The position numbers were made by a program, and so were the translations under genes. Source: Phycisphaerae bacterium RAS2 (GTDB taxonomy: Bacteria > Planctomycetota > Phycisphaerae > UBA1845 > UTPLA1). From it: DNA of 64,000 bases. Positions 31,491 to 64,000 of this stretch are shown one piece after another (positions within the stretch are counted from its first letter, which is position 1; each line of letters opens with the position of its first letter). The stretch is taken from the NCBI GenBank assembly GCA_007753915.1, contig CP036352.1, positions 4,217,306 through 4,281,305 on the forward strand. Direction: 5' to 3'. The notes beneath the pieces are model-generated. The model did not search any database. It saw only the letters and a program-made list of their open reading frames with translations, and was not told the origin of the DNA.

Positions 31491-32807
31491 ATGATTCCCA
31501 CGGTCGGCATCGGCATTCTGGGTTGCGGTGCGGTCGGCACGCAGGTCGCGCGAATCCTTCTTACCGAGGGCGACGAGCTGGCCCGGCGGTGCGGCGTTCA
31601 ATTCCAGCTGCGCCATGTCGTCGTTCGCAACCTTGCGGCCCCGCGCGACGTGGCCCTGTCGCCCGGTGTCCTGTCGAACGACCCCCGCCGAATCGTCGCC
31701 GACCCGCAGACCCATGTCGTGATCGAATTGGCCGGCGGGGCGACCCTCGCGCGCGAATTCATCCTCGCTGCGCTCGCGGCCGGCAAGCATGTCGTGACCG
31801 CCAACAAGGCCCTGCTGGCCCTGCACGGCCGCGAGATCTTCGCCGCGGCCCGCGCCGCGCGAACGTGCGTCGCGTTCGAGGCAGCCGTCGCGGGCGGCAT
31901 CCCGCTGATCGAGTCGGTCCGGCGCGGGCTGGCCGCCAATCGAATTGCTACGATTGTAGGAATCCTCAACGGCACGAGCAACTTCATCCTCACGCGCATG
32001 CTGGAGAACAACGCCAGCTACGCACACGCGCTCGCCGAGGCCCAGCGACTGGGCTACGCCGAGGCCGACCCGACGCTGGACGTGGAAGGCATCGACGCCG
32101 CGCACAAGCTCACGATCCTCGCGAGCCTCGGCATGCGCTGCGCCGTCGAGTTCGGGCGCGTCGCCACGCGCGGCATCTCCGGAATCCAACTTGGCGATCT
32201 CACCGCCGCCGACGAACTCGGCTACGCCTGCAAACTGCTGGCCATCGCCCGGCAGGACGCAACCGGGCTGGACCTCTCCGTGCAACCAGCCTTTGTCCCG
32301 AAGGCGCATCCGCTCGCTGCCGTCCACGGACCCTTTAACGCCGTCAGCCTCTACGGTCATCACGTCGGCCACACGTTTTACTTCGGGCGCGGCGCAGGCG
32401 GCGAGCCGACGGCCAGCGCCGTCATCGCCGACCTCATCGACGTCGCCCTCGGCAACGCCGCGCGCACGGCCGAGCGACTCGCCGTGTTGCCCGACGTATG
32501 CCCGCCGCCGGCCTATCGCCCGCCGGGCGAGAGCATCTCGCCTTTCTACATTCGTCTCGGATTGGCCGATCAGCCCGGCGGCATCGGGCGCATCGCCACC
32601 GCGCTGGGCGAAGAAGCCATCAGCATCGCCACGATCGTGCAGCATGAGCCGCCGCAGGCACGAGCCGCCGCAGCCGTCCCTGTGATCGTGACGACCCACC
32701 CTGCCCGCGAACGCGCCGTCCGCGACGCCCTGGAAAAAATCGCCCGGCTTGATCTCGTCCTCGAACGCCCGATCTCGATTCGCATCCTCGATGATCTGAC
32801 AGCGTAA
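31491..32807 (+). CDS. hom: Homoserine dehydrogenase
   Basis: A 438-residue enzyme reducing aspartate semialdehyde to homoserine in threonine and methionine synthesis. Hallmarks are the Rossmann motif GILGCGAVG, HVVTANKALLA, FEAAVAGGIPLIE, GILNGTSNFILTRM and the YAEADPTLDVEGIDAAHKL segment. A C-terminal ACT domain (about residues 355-435) suggests threonine feedback control. No aspartokinase is fused or adjacent. Confidence 0.95.
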   Translation: MIPTVGIGILGCGAVGTQVARILLTEGDELARRCGVQFQLRHVVVRNLAAPRDVALSPGVLSNDPRRIVADPQTHVVIELAGGATLAREFILAALAAGKHVVTANKALLALHGREIFAAARAARTCVAFEAAVAGGIPLIESVRRGLAANRIATIVGILNGTSNFILTRMLENNASYAHALAEAQRLGYAEADPTLDVEGIDAAHKLTILASLGMRCAVEFGRVATRGISGIQLGDLTAADELGYACKLLAIARQDATGLDLSVQPAFVPKAHPLAAVHGPFNAVSLYGHHVGHTFYFGRGAGGEPTASAVIADLIDVALGNAARTAERLAVLPDVCPPPAYRPPGESISPFYIRLGLADQPGGIGRIATALGEEAISIATIVQHEPPQARAAAAVPVIVTTHPARERAVRDALEKIARLDLVLERPISIRILDDLTA

Positions 32808-32850: not shown

Positions 32851-33020
32851 GCGTCAGCATGCGTCGAGCGCAGTCATGTTCCGGATCGTTGCTGGCTCAA
32901 GGAGTCCACTCAAACGGGAAGCTTCTCCCGGCGCTCCCTGACGGTCGCGGCTCGGATAGACCCCGCAAACCGGCGACAGCGATTCTTCCTACTTAATTCT
33001 ACATTCAGCATTATTTCACA

Positions 33021-33055
33021 ATTCGCAATTCGCTCTTCGCTATTCGCAATTCATT
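33021..33055. repeat. Tandem heptamer array, ATTCGCA type
   Basis: Five consecutive 7-mers are seen: ATTCGCA, ATTCGCT, CTTCGCT, ATTCGCA and ATTCATT. Upstream bases 33000-33020 are AT-rich and partly similar. The array lies between convergent hom and rsmE and overlaps the last codons and stop of rsmE. The local AT content contrasts with the GC-rich surroundings. Confidence 0.65.
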
Positions 33056-33765
33056 ACTCCCCACACCGCCGCCGCCGCGACCGCCGCCGTCTCCACGCGC
33101 AGGATCGTCCCGCCCAGCGACACCGCTAGCGCGCCCGACCGCTTCAGCAGCGCGACTTCGTCCGGCGAGAATCCGCCTTCGGGCCCGACCCAGATCGACG
33201 CACTCCGCGACGCCGCATCGCCCGCCGCGCACTCGTCAATCGCTTGCGCCAACGTTCGAGTCGCTCCGGGCGAGCCAAACCACGCCGGCCCTCCGCTCGC
33301 GAACGCCTCCAGCGCCGCCAACAGCGCCATCGGCTCGCGGATCGTCATGCTTCGCGATTGCCCGCTCTGCTTGGCTGCCTCGTCCGCCTTGCGCCGCCAT
33401 CGCGCCAACTTGCCCGCGCCGGGTGAGACCTGACCTCGATCACAAAGCAGCGGGACCACTTGCGCGACGCCCAACTCCGCGCACTTCTCCACCAGCCAGT
33501 CCGCCCGCTCGCCCTTGGGAATTGCCGTCGCGATGATTAATACGCGCGTCGATGATTCGGCCTCGCGATGCAGCACCTCCGCAACAAGCGATTCACCGCT
33601 CACGCCCGTGATCCGCGCCGTCGCCCGAAGACCCCGGCCGTCAAACAAGGTGATCTCATCGCCAACCGACAGCCGCAGCACATGCAGCGCGTGATGCGCC
33701 TCGTCGCCTCGAAGCGTCAACCGATCGCCGCTCAAGTCGTCCGCTTTGAATGCGCGCCGTCGCAT
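33040..33765 (-). CDS. rsmE: 16S rRNA (uracil1498-N3)-methyltransferase
   Basis: A 241-residue SPOUT methyltransferase modifying 16S rRNA U1498. Hallmarks are DEAHHALHVLRLSVGDEI, an ATAIPKGERADWLVEKCAELGV core, QSGQSR and the SAM-binding knot IWVGPEGGFSPDE with SLGGTILRVETA. The start at 33765 (MRRRAF) resembles family N-termini; 33798 is an in-frame alternative. The last four residues are encoded inside the heptamer array. Confidence 0.93.
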   Translation of the reverse strand: MRRRAFKADDLSGDRLTLRGDEAHHALHVLRLSVGDEITLFDGRGLRATARITGVSGESLVAEVLHREAESSTRVLIIATAIPKGERADWLVEKCAELGVAQVVPLLCDRGQVSPGAGKLARWRRKADEAAKQSGQSRSMTIREPMALLAALEAFASGGPAWFGSPGATRTLAQAIDECAAGDAASRSASIWVGPEGGFSPDEVALLKRSGALAVSLGGTILRVETAAVAAAAVWGVMNCE

Positions 33766-33897
33766 GCCGACATGTTCCTGCCATGGGCACGCCTTCACAA
33801 GCGCGCCCCCGACGAGATACTCGCTTCAAGCGCCCTTCGGCGAACGGCCGATAAATGAGCACGCGAGCCGAGTATTCCGCGCGCCGAGATTCGCACC

Positions 33898-52977: not shown

Positions 52978-54999
52978 ATGCGGCGCATGAAACCGTGTGC
53001 GACGGAATCTGCCACGCCACCCGAACGGCGAACCAGTGGCGCGGCCATCCTCGCGCTGCTCGCCATCCTCGCGCTGGGCCTGTGGATCGAAGTCCGACGC
53101 ATTCCGGCCGTGTACGACGCGCAGCGCGTGCTGCCGGGCGACCCGGACGACATCATGCGCCTGTATCGCGTGCGGCAGATCGTCGGCGGCGCGCGGTCAT
53201 TCATCCGCCACGAGCCGCGAGTCAATTATCCGAGCGGAATCGAACTGCATTGGACCGCGCCGGCCGATTACTTGCTCGCCATCCCCACGGTCCTGCTCAA
53301 GCCGCTGATCCGGCATCCCGACCCGGTCGCCCTGGTGATGGTGTGGATCTCGCCGGCGATGGGCATCGCGTACCTCGTCTTGATGTTCGCGCTGGTCCGC
53401 GCGCTGGCGGCAAACAGCGCGGCGGCCGGCCTTCTTGCGGCGCTCGCGACCGCGGTCAGCCCGGCATTTCACCGCGCGTTTCAACTTGGTCACGCCGACC
53501 ACCAGTGCGCCTTGGAGTTGCTGGCCTTGCTCTCCGTCTATTTGTTGTTCGTGCGGCGCAGGGCCGCAGCGGCCGGTGCGGCGATCGGGCTAACGATCTG
53601 GATCGCGCCGCAGGCGATGGCCGCGTGGCTGGCGATCTTCGCGGGCCTGCTGGTCGACACCGCGCGCCGCCGCGCGTTCTCCTCCGCGGCGCTGGCGGTC
53701 GTCCTGTTGGGTTACCTCGTCGAGAACGCGCCGAATCACCTGGCGCGCCTGCATGTTGACAAGGTCAGCCTATTTCATGTCGCCCTCTTCGCGCTCGCGT
53801 GGCTCGCGCCGTCTACTTTGCGATCTACCTCCGCAACACCTTCACATGAACACCCGATTGAGCCTGGCCCGACCCGCGACGCATCCGCCGACACGTTGCT
53901 GTCCCGTTTTCTCTTCGCGGCCCTCGCCTTCGGGCTTGCCGCCTTGTTTGCCTGGTCGCCGAATCGCCTGTTCGAATTCGTGTCCCGCCCGGAGTTCTTC
54001 CGCTGGTCCGATGCGATCATTGAGTTGCAGCCGCTCATCCTCCACGCCGGCGGCGAATGGTCGTTCGCCAACCTTCACCGCCTGCTCGGCTTCGCGCCTT
54101 ATGCCCTGCCGTGCGCACTGATCTTCTTCCTCCGAGCGCGACACATCGACGTCGCCGCGCGCATCGCCCTCGCCCTGCTCGCCGTGGGTTTCGTCGCACT
54201 CTCCATCCTTCAGCGCCGCTGGATCGATCACGTCAACGTCGGCCTCGTCCCCGTCATCGTCCTCGGCGCAATCGAAGCCGTGCGACGGCTGACCCCGCCG
54301 CGATGGATCGCGCCGGCCACAGCAGCTCTTGCGGCAATCGTATTCTTTCCTTCCGCCCGCGGTGTTCTGACGGCGCCCTTTGCTGCGCCGCATCCGCATT
54401 TGCTTCGCACCGGCGCCGTCGCCGATCACATTCGTCGCTTCGAGGCCACGCAGCCTGCCGCCGGTGATCGCCGCGCCATCCTCGCCGAGGAGGGCGAAGG
54501 CCCGATGCTGCTGGACCGAACCGGTCTGCCCGTCGTCGCCGCGCCCTATCACCGTGCCCTGGACGGCATCATCGAAGCCGCGCGATTCTTCTCGGAGACC
54601 GATCCGGCCACCGCGCGCAAGCAACTCGACCGCCTCGGCGTGCGATACGTCGTCGTGCCGCTGCGACCCAGTGAGCAGCTTCTGAACATGGAGCACATCG
54701 CATACGGCGAGCCGCGTTCCTTCGACCCGCCCGACCGCCGATTCGACGCCGAAGGGAACATCGCGCAGACGCTGCACTTCCGCCCGCGTGTTGCACGGAC
54801 CATGGCTTATCGACTCGCCATGCTCGATCCGCCGCCAGAACTGGGTGTGCGCCTGCTCGCGCGAACCCGCGAAGGCGCCCCAACCCCCGACGGCTTGTCG
54901 GGACTCCTCTACGTCGTGGAGAATACGCTAGCCGCCGCTCAACCCGCGACCGCGCCGAGCAGCGGCCCCGGCGACGTACCAATCCGGATTCGCCCATGA
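52978..54999 (+). CDS. Large polytopic membrane protein of GT-C glycosyltransferase type
   Basis: A 673-residue protein. About twelve hydrophobic helices lie between residues 20 and 490, and a soluble domain covers the C-terminal 180 residues. The first loop contains VLPGDPDDIMRLYRVRQI, an acidic DD-type loop as in STT3/PglB-like oligosaccharyl transferases and other GT-C enzymes. NYPSGIELHWTAP is a second conserved-looking segment. It probably uses a lipid-linked sugar donor; this is inference. Its stop overlaps the ligA start by 4 bases (ATGA), although the functions look unrelated. Compare the protein at 15107. Confidence 0.62.
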   Translation: MRRMKPCATESATPPERRTSGAAILALLAILALGLWIEVRRIPAVYDAQRVLPGDPDDIMRLYRVRQIVGGARSFIRHEPRVNYPSGIELHWTAPADYLLAIPTVLLKPLIRHPDPVALVMVWISPAMGIAYLVLMFALVRALAANSAAAGLLAALATAVSPAFHRAFQLGHADHQCALELLALLSVYLLFVRRRAAAAGAAIGLTIWIAPQAMAAWLAIFAGLLVDTARRRAFSSAALAVVLLGYLVENAPNHLARLHVDKVSLFHVALFALAWLAPSTLRSTSATPSHEHPIEPGPTRDASADTLLSRFLFAALAFGLAALFAWSPNRLFEFVSRPEFFRWSDAIIELQPLILHAGGEWSFANLHRLLGFAPYALPCALIFFLRARHIDVAARIALALLAVGFVALSILQRRWIDHVNVGLVPVIVLGAIEAVRRLTPPRWIAPATAALAAIVFFPSARGVLTAPFAAPHPHLLRTGAVADHIRRFEATQPAAGDRRAILAEEGEGPMLLDRTGLPVVAAPYHRALDGIIEAARFFSETDPATARKQLDRLGVRYVVVPLRPSEQLLNMEHIAYGEPRSFDPPDRRFDAEGNIAQTLHFRPRVARTMAYRLAMLDPPPELGVRLLARTREGAPTPDGLSGLLYVVENTLAAAQPATAPSSGPGDVPIRIRP

Positions 55000-57245
55000 C
55001 GCCCGCGCAGGAAATCGCGAAGCTCCGCGACGAGATCAACGAACACGATTACCTGTATTACACCGCCGCTGCGCCGCGCATCAGCGACCGGGAGTATGAC
55101 AAGCTGTTCGCGCGGTTGAAGGAGCTAGAGGCCGCGCACCCGAATCTCGTCACGCCCGACTCGCCGACCCAGCGCGTCGGGGAGAAACTGCTCGCCGGGT
55201 TCAAGCACGTCACGCACGCCGTGCCGATGCTCTCGATCGACAACACCTACAACGAAGCGGAGCTGCGCGATTTTGACGGGCGCGTGTCGCGCGGCCTGGA
55301 CGGTGCGAAGTACGAATATCTCGTGGACCCCAAGATTGACGGCGTCTCTGCCACGCTGCGATACGAAGACGGTGCGCTGGTGCTGGCTGCCACGCGCGGC
55401 GACGGTAAATCCGGCGACGACATCACGGCGAACGTGAAGACCATCCGCGCGATTCCGCTGCGGCTACGGGGCAAAGGCTGGCCCCGCGTGCTGGAGGTGC
55501 GCGGCGAGGTCTATTGGCCGCGCAAAGCGTTCGACGCGTTCAACGCGCAGCGCATGAAGGAAGGCGAGGAGCCGTTCGCCAACCCACGCAACGCGACGAC
55601 CGGCGCGCTCAAGTCGCTCGATCCGCGCGAGACCGCCTCGCGTGGCCTTGCCTTCATTGCGCACGGGTTCGGCGAGATTGGCGGCGCGGAGTTTGACCGA
55701 GCCAGCGAGTTGTTCGCCGCGGTGAAAAAGTGGGGTTTGCCGGTCAGCCCGCATCAGACGCTTTGCAAGTCCATCGACGAAGTCGTGCGATTTGTGAACG
55801 ACTGGGAAACGCGCCGCCACAAACTCGAGTACGAGACCGACGGATTGGTGATCAAGATCGACCGGCTCGATCAGCGCGACGCACTCGGGGCGACCAGCCG
55901 CTTTCCCCGCTGGTGCATCGCGTACAAGTACGCCGCCGAGCAGGCCGAGAGCAAGCTGCTGAATGTCGATTTTCAGGTCGGCAAACTCGGCACGATCACG
56001 CCGCGGGCCGTCATGGAGCCGGTGCAACTTTCGGGCACGACCGTCCGCCATGCCAGCCTGCACAACTTCGACCAGGTCGCCCGGCTCGGCGCGGACCACG
56101 GCGGTCTGCACGTGGGCGATACCGTGCTGGTTGAGAAAGCCGGCGAGATCATCCCGCAGGTGATTCGCATCACAAAGCCCGGCAAGCCACGCGGCAGGCT
56201 CGTCGAGCCGCCGAACAAGTGCCCCGTCTGCAACGGCGACATCGAGAAGGACGAGGGCGGCGTTTACATCCGATGCATCAATCCGTCGTGCGACGCGCAG
56301 ATCAAGGAGCGGCTGAAGTTCTTCTGCGGCCGCGACCAGATGGACATCGAAGGCGTCGGCGAGGCGCTGGTCGAGCAACTCGTCGATCAGGACTGGGTGC
56401 ATTCCTACGCCGATCTGTACAAGATTGCGAACGAAGAGGCCGAGCGGCCGGGCAAATGGCGTGACAAACTCGCGGCGCTGACCTTCGAGCAGGAGCGTCG
56501 CACCGAAGAAGGTATAAAGAAGCAGACGGTGCAACTCGGAGAGAAGCGTGCAGACAAACTGCTTGAAGGCATTGAGCGCAGCAAGAAACAACCGCTTGCC
56601 CGCGTGCTTGCCGCACTCAACATCCGCCACGTCGGCAGCTCGACAGCCGAACTCCTCGCCGAACACTTCGGCAGCATGGATGCCCTCGCCGAAGCGGCGA
56701 CAACAACTCTCTCTCCCTCCAAGGGAGAGGGTCGGGGTGAGGGTCCGACGCCGAAACGCGCCAAGCGATCCTCCCAGCGCACCACCGCCCCATCGCTTTT
56801 CGGCGCAGACACCGACGACGATTCGCAAACCGCTCCGCCCGTCAAGTCGAAACCGCCCGCCGACCCCCTGCAGGAGATCGAGGGCATCGGCCCGGAAGTC
56901 GCCTCGACCATCCGGCACTTCTTCACCAGCGACGCCGGCCGCAAAACGTGGCAGGCCCTGCGCGACGCCGGGGCGAACATGACACAGCCGCGCCGCGCGA
57001 AGAGCGCCCACCAGCCACTCGCCGGCAAGACGCTTGTCGTCACCGGCACGCTGGAAGGCTACTCGCGCAGCGAGATTGAGAAGCTTATCAAAGACCTGGG
57101 CGGCAAAGTCGCGTCAAGCGTCAGCAAGAAGACGGATTACCTCGTCTGCGGCGAAGACGCGGGAAGCAAGCTGGACAAGGCGAAGGAACTGGGGGTCGAG
57201 GTACTGTCGGAATCCGATTTTAGGAAACGAGTCAGCACAGATTAA
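54996..57245 (+). CDS. ligA: NAD-dependent DNA ligase with an unusual insertion
   Basis: A 749-residue ligase sealing nicks in DNA. Residues 1-68 form the Ia domain. The adenylation lysine is K113 (DPKIDG). YETDGLVIKIDR is motif IV. The Cys4 zinc finger is CPVC ... CINPSC. A helix-hairpin-helix region and a C-terminal BRCT domain (LAGKTLVVTGTLEGYSR) follow. Length exceeds the usual ~670 residues. Residues 569-628 between helix-hairpin-helix units are low-complexity; the part 572-583 (LSPSKGEGRGEG) is encoded by a palindromic repeat. The start overlaps the upstream gene by 4 bases. Confidence 0.95.
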   Translation: MTPAQEIAKLRDEINEHDYLYYTAAAPRISDREYDKLFARLKELEAAHPNLVTPDSPTQRVGEKLLAGFKHVTHAVPMLSIDNTYNEAELRDFDGRVSRGLDGAKYEYLVDPKIDGVSATLRYEDGALVLAATRGDGKSGDDITANVKTIRAIPLRLRGKGWPRVLEVRGEVYWPRKAFDAFNAQRMKEGEEPFANPRNATTGALKSLDPRETASRGLAFIAHGFGEIGGAEFDRASELFAAVKKWGLPVSPHQTLCKSIDEVVRFVNDWETRRHKLEYETDGLVIKIDRLDQRDALGATSRFPRWCIAYKYAAEQAESKLLNVDFQVGKLGTITPRAVMEPVQLSGTTVRHASLHNFDQVARLGADHGGLHVGDTVLVEKAGEIIPQVIRITKPGKPRGRLVEPPNKCPVCNGDIEKDEGGVYIRCINPSCDAQIKERLKFFCGRDQMDIEGVGEALVEQLVDQDWVHSYADLYKIANEEAERPGKWRDKLAALTFEQERRTEEGIKKQTVQLGEKRADKLLEGIERSKKQPLARVLAALNIRHVGSSTAELLAEHFGSMDALAEAATTTLSPSKGEGRGEGPTPKRAKRSSQRTTAPSLFGADTDDDSQTAPPVKSKPPADPLQEIEGIGPEVASTIRHFFTSDAGRKTWQALRDAGANMTQPRRAKSAHQPLAGKTLVVTGTLEGYSRSEIEKLIKDLGGKVASSVSKKTDYLVCGEDAGSKLDKAKELGVEVLSESDFRKRVSTD
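56709..56744. repeat. REP-like palindromic element inside ligA
   Basis: CTCTCCCT (56711-56718) and AGGGAGAG (56722-56729) form a hairpin with a 3-base loop, followed by GGTCGGGGTGAGGGT. This resembles a short palindromic repeat family seen across many bacterial genomes. In the ligA frame it encodes LSPSKGEGRGEG. Confidence 0.7.

Positions 57246-62210: not shown

Positions 62211-64000
<1,790 letters not shown>

Follow-up and report, generated by a model that had tools for sequence, protein, structure and literature searches.

A triplex-motif palindrome read in frame in the DNA ligase of a planctomycete and in other genes of its genus

LigA, the NAD-dependent DNA ligase encoded in the genome studied here, carries in its helix-hairpin-helix region an in-frame 36-nt palindrome which, by layout and sequence, is a member of the G/C-rich intrastrand triplex motif TM_ECO, with a triplex that is putative. 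We consider it probable (about 0.83) that this is a non-autonomous palindrome which inserts, and that the copies surviving within genes are those which stay in frame, encode a hydrophilic, disordered peptide and lie in a tolerant loop. What is directly shown is the element itself, its copies, the genes that contain it in frame, the empty sites and the predicted disorder of the encoded segment.

The window, i.e., the whole stretch of DNA that was analysed, comprises 64,000 nucleotides (positions 4,217,306-4,281,305 of the only contig, which is 4.32 Mb long) of the genome labelled G000; G001 is the sole same-genus genome found.

Results

The extra segment of LigA

54996-57245, + strand: ligA, NAD-dependent DNA ligase, 749 aa, uninterrupted (open reading frame list and Pfam domains)
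56703-56861, + strand: lineage-specific insert of 53 residues, LigA 570-622, helix-hairpin-helix region (LigA alignments, PDB alignment, AlphaFold)
56709-56744, + strand: palindromic triplex motif (TM) of 36 nt, spanning 12 codons, peptide LSPSKGEGRGEG (repeat search, copy alignment, Table 1 of PMC4666352)
56709-56717, + strand: 5' hairpin arm (pyrimidine) of the TM, with 8 Watson-Crick pairs and one T-G pair with the 3' arm
56723-56731, + strand: 3' hairpin arm (purine) of the TM (sequence and fold)
56735-56743, + strand: putative third strand GGGTGAGGG (triplex scheme of PMC4666352)
56745-56861, + strand: the other 39 insert residues, PTPKRAKRSS...SKPPA, encoded by DNA that is single-copy in G000 (DNA search)

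Pfam assigned NAD-ligase adenylation, OB, zinc, HhH and BRCT domains to LigA, and this gene was the single LigA match in G000 at E <= 0.001. Matches were found in 58 of 61 genomes, those outside an alignment of 29 relatives being judged from match coordinates. Residues 570-622 are missing from 28 of the 29 aligned relatives and present only in G001; in a second alignment, for which 40 of 57 loci were used and partial or duplicated loci were left out, they are missing from all 40 named relatives. The segment is thus specific to the lineage and not phylum-wide, and the roughly 60 extra residues described in the first-pass annotation are real, with a size of 53. The planctomycete host that it had named agrees with the relatives, as 55 of the 57 loci of named relatives matching LigA bear planctomycete names, mostly of MAGs; this count includes Aeoliella, which we take to be a planctomycete. 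The longer ligA loops of two further genomes (G031 and G046), fetched as candidates for the same element, hold unrelated sequence there.

Direct PDB relatives exist for LigA, and in the PDB alignment the insert site maps between residues 542 and 544 of E. coli LigA (2owo). An AlphaFold2 model built on a 41-sequence alignment (mean pLDDT 83.4, pTM 0.51) has pLDDT <50 at residues 573-618, flanked by helices 561-569 and 633-644, and elsewhere in just three stretches of 3-4 residues each. The palindrome had been proposed as the core of the insert; it is present, at codons 572-583, and contributes 12 of the 53 residues, the remainder being low-complexity-like and single-copy. A DNA search of six genomes returned no second copy of this remainder, all matches beyond ligA having E of at least 0.01. 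The region 56740-56870 is 87% identical to G001 ligA. The part at 56745-56861 includes the motif APSLFG, kept in G001, which presumably has a faint likeness to the beta-clamp binding pentapeptide. LigA of G001 (L027) is a mosaic, with residues 1-485 90% identical to G000 and a second match, 438-743, at 57%, and carries an additional diverged helix-hairpin-helix copy; a comparable partial duplication, without the insert, occurs in LigA of G015 (L038).

The palindrome as a triplex motif

The palindrome in ligA, noticed earlier as REP-like and in frame in the helix-hairpin-helix region, is laid out as CTCTCTCCC-TCCAA-GGGAGAGGG-TCG-GGGTGAGGG-T, with its first base on a codon boundary. With the third strand antiparallel on the purine arm, all nine triads are of the purine type (7 G.GC, 1 T.AT and 1 A.AT). 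Alignment of 15 G000 copies, the 16th, in cinA, being interrupted and left out, gave the consensus CCCTCTCCCTTCnAGGGAGAGGGCCGGGGTGAGGGT, which contains neither a GTAG nor a CGTC tag.

At <=3 mismatches, the half-motif GGGAGAGGGTYRGGGTGAGGG occurs once in the 64-kb window versus 0 in 100 dinucleotide shuffles, and 16 times in the whole G000 genome versus 0 for the reversed pattern; these copies lie inside and outside genes, and the palindrome is therefore not unique to ligA. The DNA hairpin of the ligA copy folds moderately better than shuffles (z -1.78), so the evidence against chance is repetition rather than folding energy; RNA folding around it was unremarkable (z -1.23).

Distribution of the motif

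In addition to the 16 TM copies of G000 found with the half-motif, there are 76 in G001 at E <= 1e-5, with 150 first-look candidates scored per genome. A covariance-model survey of 61 genomes (103 first-look candidates scored per genome; E <= 1e-6) found the motif, in a patchy distribution, in 18 of them, i.e., in G000 and 17 of 60 relatives, with 72 copies in G001, 61 in G006, 41 in G014 and none in 43 genomes. Nearly all listed G001 copies were fetched, leaving out at least those at 1,555,379 and 1,773,631, and the 46 loci yielded 52 scripted events, or 50 distinct ones after one tandem array was merged. Inverted two-unit copies make up 32 of these 50 events, whereas all 16 G000 copies are single units (inverted two-unit, 0/16). 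Tandem TM arrays were seen outside recognised genes at L116 1195-1766 (G001 2,465,775-2,466,369) and L144, one array having a period of about 92 bp.

In-frame copies and empty sites

Seven of the 16 G000 copies lie in frame in genes, namely ligA, gatB, miaA, cinA, hutI and two membrane-protein genes (L006 and L007). For the other nine, a codon model shows no frame crossing the copy; three are placed between opposite-strand frames and six have unclear flanks. Since the codon model overlooks cases shown by homology (miaA in G000; ligA, argH, the L143 gene, miaA and hutI in G001), in-gene counts merge codon model and homology. G001 has the motif in the same seven genes, with a decayed copy in hutI and an extra second unit in miaA. 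In GatB, MiaA, CinA, HutI and the two membrane proteins, the insert is present in G000 and G001 and absent in G013.

Four further genes contain the motif in G001, i.e., hutU, preA, a Rieske-type gene and argH, and G000 has an empty site for all four. These G001-only inserts are in whole codons: 27 aa in HutU, about 15 in PreA, where the insert sits in a linker of variable length, 56 in the Rieske-type protein and 51 in ArgH. The Rieske-type copy is an inverted two-unit one, and the argH copy also has two units. The HutU loop has been used in two genera, as the loop that holds the motif in G001 hutU holds it in hutU of G007 too, there in the form of two tandem units. Beside the TM in the G001 hutU insert (L127) lies another palindrome-like stretch, CACAGGCATCTCGCCTGTG, read within KQDCGTGISPVN. 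Outside the genus, a further in-frame copy was found in wecB of G003, with weaker cases in G014 (L288) and G009 (L320). HutU (the G007 copy), WecB, HutI, MiaA, GatB, CinA and PreA pass their NCBIfam cut-offs, and ArgH is narrowly below its own (272.0 vs 279.5 bits). Among loci read in two relatives rich in the motif, one of 20 is in frame in a gene in G014 and 0 of 20 in G006; survival within genes is therefore not general and appears as a trait of some lineages.

Reading-frame bias

Four of the six frames of the TM consensus are free of stops. The frame encoding SPxxGEGRGEG is used by 11 of 13 single-unit in-gene insertions (P = 1.1e-5 vs equal use of the four stop-free frames), the dimers in the Rieske-type gene and argH being left out of the count. 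Two of the 13 events came first from the codon model, namely L288, with no NCBIfam match, and L320, with NCBIfam matches on both sides of the TM that are below cut-off. The two events in other frames are hutI, which reads PSPQPFPLEGEG, and L320, whose frame is closed in the consensus and open in that copy. The peptide of the favoured frame is the most hydrophilic (GRAVY -1.22 vs -1.16, -0.69 and +0.19 in the other stop-free frames). The simplest cause of the bias is survival of a peptide forming a harmless loop, an orientation preference being indistinguishable from it with 13 cases.

Search for a transposase of the motif

Y1_Tnp matches numbered 57 (8 in G000 and 49 in seven relatives), and 38 of these loci (8 from G000, 4 from G001 and 26 of the other 45) were scanned for the TM in the surrounding 3 kb. 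In none of the 38 was the motif found on both sides of the gene, and a RAYT as the TM transposase was rejected on this count. Three had one TM core on one side, at about 0.3 kb in G010, about 0.7 kb (weak) in G003 and about 0.6 kb in G001, where a 92-aa Y1_Tnp fragment lies near the TM inside the L272 gene. The RAYT-like gene of G010 (L153 1214; 95.8 bits) represents the nearest clear pairing among those scanned. L017 of G000, which has other palindromes on both sides, also has a degenerate pair of TM units about 170 bp upstream. Each of the RAYT-like genes L021, L023 and L017 of G000 is flanked on both sides by inverted palindromes of its own, which belong to different families.

It is a real possibility, although with less than an even chance, that the motif is nevertheless a RAYT-mobilised REPIN like the other palindromes found here, the RAYT having been lost or being located elsewhere. 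The inverted two-unit copies that dominate G001 have the REPIN layout, other palindrome families, the GAGCCGCGACCG and E1 families of G000 among them, flank RAYT-like genes (L021, L020 and L163), and the G010 gene has the motif on one side. This origin is opposed by the scan itself, by the untagged consensus and by the single units of G000.

Substitution rates in shared copies

In the five shared main-frame TM copies compared between G000 and G001, third positions changed at 3 of 60 sites versus 178 of 731 in flanking codons (Fisher P = 1.8e-4), whereas first and second positions did not differ (9/120 vs 95/1462; P = 0.70). This count leaves out the split copy in cinA and that in hutI, whose frame is a different one. 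Reduced change at third positions is unexpected for a neutral passenger and is counted against the view that the motif is simply inserted and tolerated. It is suggestive of constraint at the DNA level or of gene conversion, as judged from the sequences; the five copies were selected in G000 by nearness to consensus, which lowers divergence, and the tail probability with a half branch (rate halved) is 0.004-0.018.

On such an account, the triplex or hairpin would be kept, or the motif would be overwritten repeatedly by gene conversion, so that a coding copy serves two roles. The retention of all nine third-strand triads in the ligA copy fits this, as do the third positions; against it, the hutI copy changes freely (dS 0.69), third-strand bases have been lost in the G001 copies of gatB and L272, and the choice of copies and the half-branch result weaken the rate contrast. 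We regard it as unlikely.

Constraint on the LigA insert

Domestication would mean that LigA owes a new function to the whole insert, i.e., the palindrome peptide with the 39 unique residues, perhaps as a linker on which a partner protein docks, and that selection acting on the peptide maintains it. The insert is kept in both genomes of the genus, and the 100-column stretch containing it has 87 identical residues in G001 LigA although the neighbouring helix-hairpin-helix and BRCT parts are far more diverged. The 40 codons 3' of the palindrome have dN 0.10 and dS 0.29, but a ratio near 0.35 over a short stretch indicates weak constraint, and the palindrome part itself has 2 nonsynonymous and 0 synonymous changes between the two genomes. 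Together with the predicted disorder and the occurrence of the same peptide in unrelated enzymes, this makes a gained function quite improbable, and the term "domesticated" in the first-pass annotation, understood in that sense, is unsupported.

Convergence, in which a low-complexity linker would have drifted into an E. coli-like sequence, accords with the character of the rest of the insert and can be dismissed, being contradicted by the copy count (16 in the genome vs 0 in the control) and opposed by the presence of this element in ten further genes, for four of which the sister species has the empty site, and by the 33 of 36 bases that equal E. coli TM copy 12 in our own comparison with Table 1 of Holder et al. 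(2015; PMC4666352).

Other palindrome families

62211-63926, - strand: part of a dehydrogenase E1 gene (Transket_pyr, Transketolase_C, E1_dh; Pfam), whose frame continues past the window
62411-62441, - strand: second palindrome family (CAACGAGCCGCGGGCTTCAGCCCGCGCGGCC), a copy read in frame that forms the 31-nt core of an insert near the E1 C-terminus
32932-32953, - strand: third palindrome family (GAGCCGCGACCGTCAGGGAGCG), a copy located in the gap that separates the long ORFs 31491-32807 and 33040-33798

The E1 gene, which had been paired with ligA, has its own in-frame palindrome, common to G001 and belonging to a different family from the ligA TM; the two cases are therefore not one element, and two palindrome families entered two genes of one window in frame. 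The E1 insert is present in G001 and absent in nine other family genomes aligned. At E <= 0.1, a search with the 151-bp insert region matched 45 sites of G000, the query among them, 60 of G001 and 5 of G013 (40 first-look candidates scored per genome), most matches being restricted to the palindrome core or part of it. Inverted copies of this family lie on both sides of L020 in G000 and of L163 in G001, each of which is a Y1_Tnp (RAYT-like) gene. The GAGCCGCGACCGTCAGGGAGCG family has 82 genome copies at <=2 mismatches versus 1 in the reversed control.

Several families may share one gene. In cinA of G000, but not of G001, a GAGCCGCGACCG family member accompanies the shared TM, and the TM loop is split at GG^GAG by a fourth palindrome (TCGC...GACTCGCCGTGGCGAG), which also splits a GAGCCGCGACCG copy at L013. 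In gatB of G000, a GAGCCGCGACCG copy adjoins the TM, with a matching peptide in GatB of G001. All these piled-up in-gene cases (cinA and gatB) stay in frame. The fourth palindrome thus enters GG^GAG inside two palindromes of different families (L011 and L013), which suggests a sequence- or structure-specific target. In a different planctomycete MAG, the ligA match is closely followed on its downstream side by an inverted GACTCGCCGTGGCGAG palindrome pair (L193 3537-3641).

Discussion

According to the reading that we prefer, a 36-nt non-autonomous element of the TM type would have landed, in the ancestor of the genus, in a helix-hairpin-helix loop of LigA just past the helix ending at residue 569. 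The frame would have been kept (36 nt equal 12 codons, with no stop), in the stop-free frame with the most hydrophilic peptide, and the loop would tolerate the insert as a disordered linker. The same process would account for the copies in ten further genes of this pair of sister species. The copies probably move by a transposase acting in trans, and purifying selection on the host protein, rather than a benefit from the peptide, would set which of them survive. In addition to the low change at third positions, it is counted against this account that no mobility was observed, that no transposase is tied to the motif, that the palindrome supplies so few of the insert residues, and that the copies of G014 and G006 are mostly outside genes.

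A broader proposal, which we put forward tentatively and consider somewhat unlikely as a whole, is that the TM, the RAYT-linked E1, the GAGCCGCGACCG and the GG^GAG-inserting families are jointly a source of new protein loops. They would accumulate at shared positions where essential enzymes tolerate insertions (at least two families in cinA and gatB; a single hutU loop in both genera), no frame but the hydrophilic one would survive, and the in-gene copies would be under sequence-level constraint or gene conversion, i.e., dual-use DNA.

For named housekeeping enzymes, the sister species supply corresponding alleles with and without the insert; together with a strong frame bias, the repeated use of a single loop and the essential ligase among the hosts, this makes the question of tolerated versus used inserts directly testable. 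A triplex-forming DNA motif that has been described as intergenic in E. coli is now tied to protein evolution, and the TM is a well-supported example of repeat DNA that has become protein sequence.

Comparison with known systems

The TM itself and in-frame palindromes, i.e., Rickettsia RPEs and GTAG/CGTC REPs, are already known. In the literature searched, largely without subscription papers, we did not find a TM that serves as coding insert, sister alleles with and without the element, frame bias, nesting or reuse of the hutU loop, nor the peptide GEGRGEG.

REPINs with RAYT transposases were reportedly described by Bertels and Rainey in 2011. They share with the TM a short, non-autonomous palindrome in many copies, the inverted two-unit form being seen for the TM in G001 and in none of the G000 copies; they differ from it in the RAYT-like gene flanked on both sides, found for the TM in 0 of the 38 genes scanned.

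Rickettsia palindromic elements are said to have been reported by Ogata in 2002 and by Claverie and Ogata in 2003. The TM is shorter than RPE-1, and its planctomycete host, unlike Rickettsia, is not obligate intracellular as far as known. The likeness to these elements that had been proposed is borne out by arrangement, as the same TM lies in frame in several unrelated genes and between genes, and RPEs are likewise palindromic repeats inside and outside genes, in frame in unrelated proteins, according to Di Nocera et al. (2013; PMC3733652). Intragenic GTAG/CGTC REPs of several species are in frame, occur as singles and dimers, many of them in replication and repair genes, have the DNA ligase of Opitutus terrae (PVC superphylum) among their hosts, and were proposed by the authors to form loops or linkers (Di Nocera et al., 2013). 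They represent other sequence families, which are tagged, whereas the TM consensus has neither tag (PMC3733652).

The palindrome matches TM_ECO, a motif known from many bacteria, of which E. coli MG1655 is reported to have 23 copies, all intergenic (Holder et al., 2015; PMC4666352). TM_ECO and the ligA TM share a 34-37 nt layout (arms, short loop, 3-nt loop and third strand), the second loop TCG of the latter is that of E. coli copy 12 and as in the type B entries, and inverted pairs occur in both (PMC4666352). In contrast to the intergenic position reported for TM_ECO in E. coli MG1655, 7 of the 16 copies in G000 are read in frame within genes (PMC4666352).
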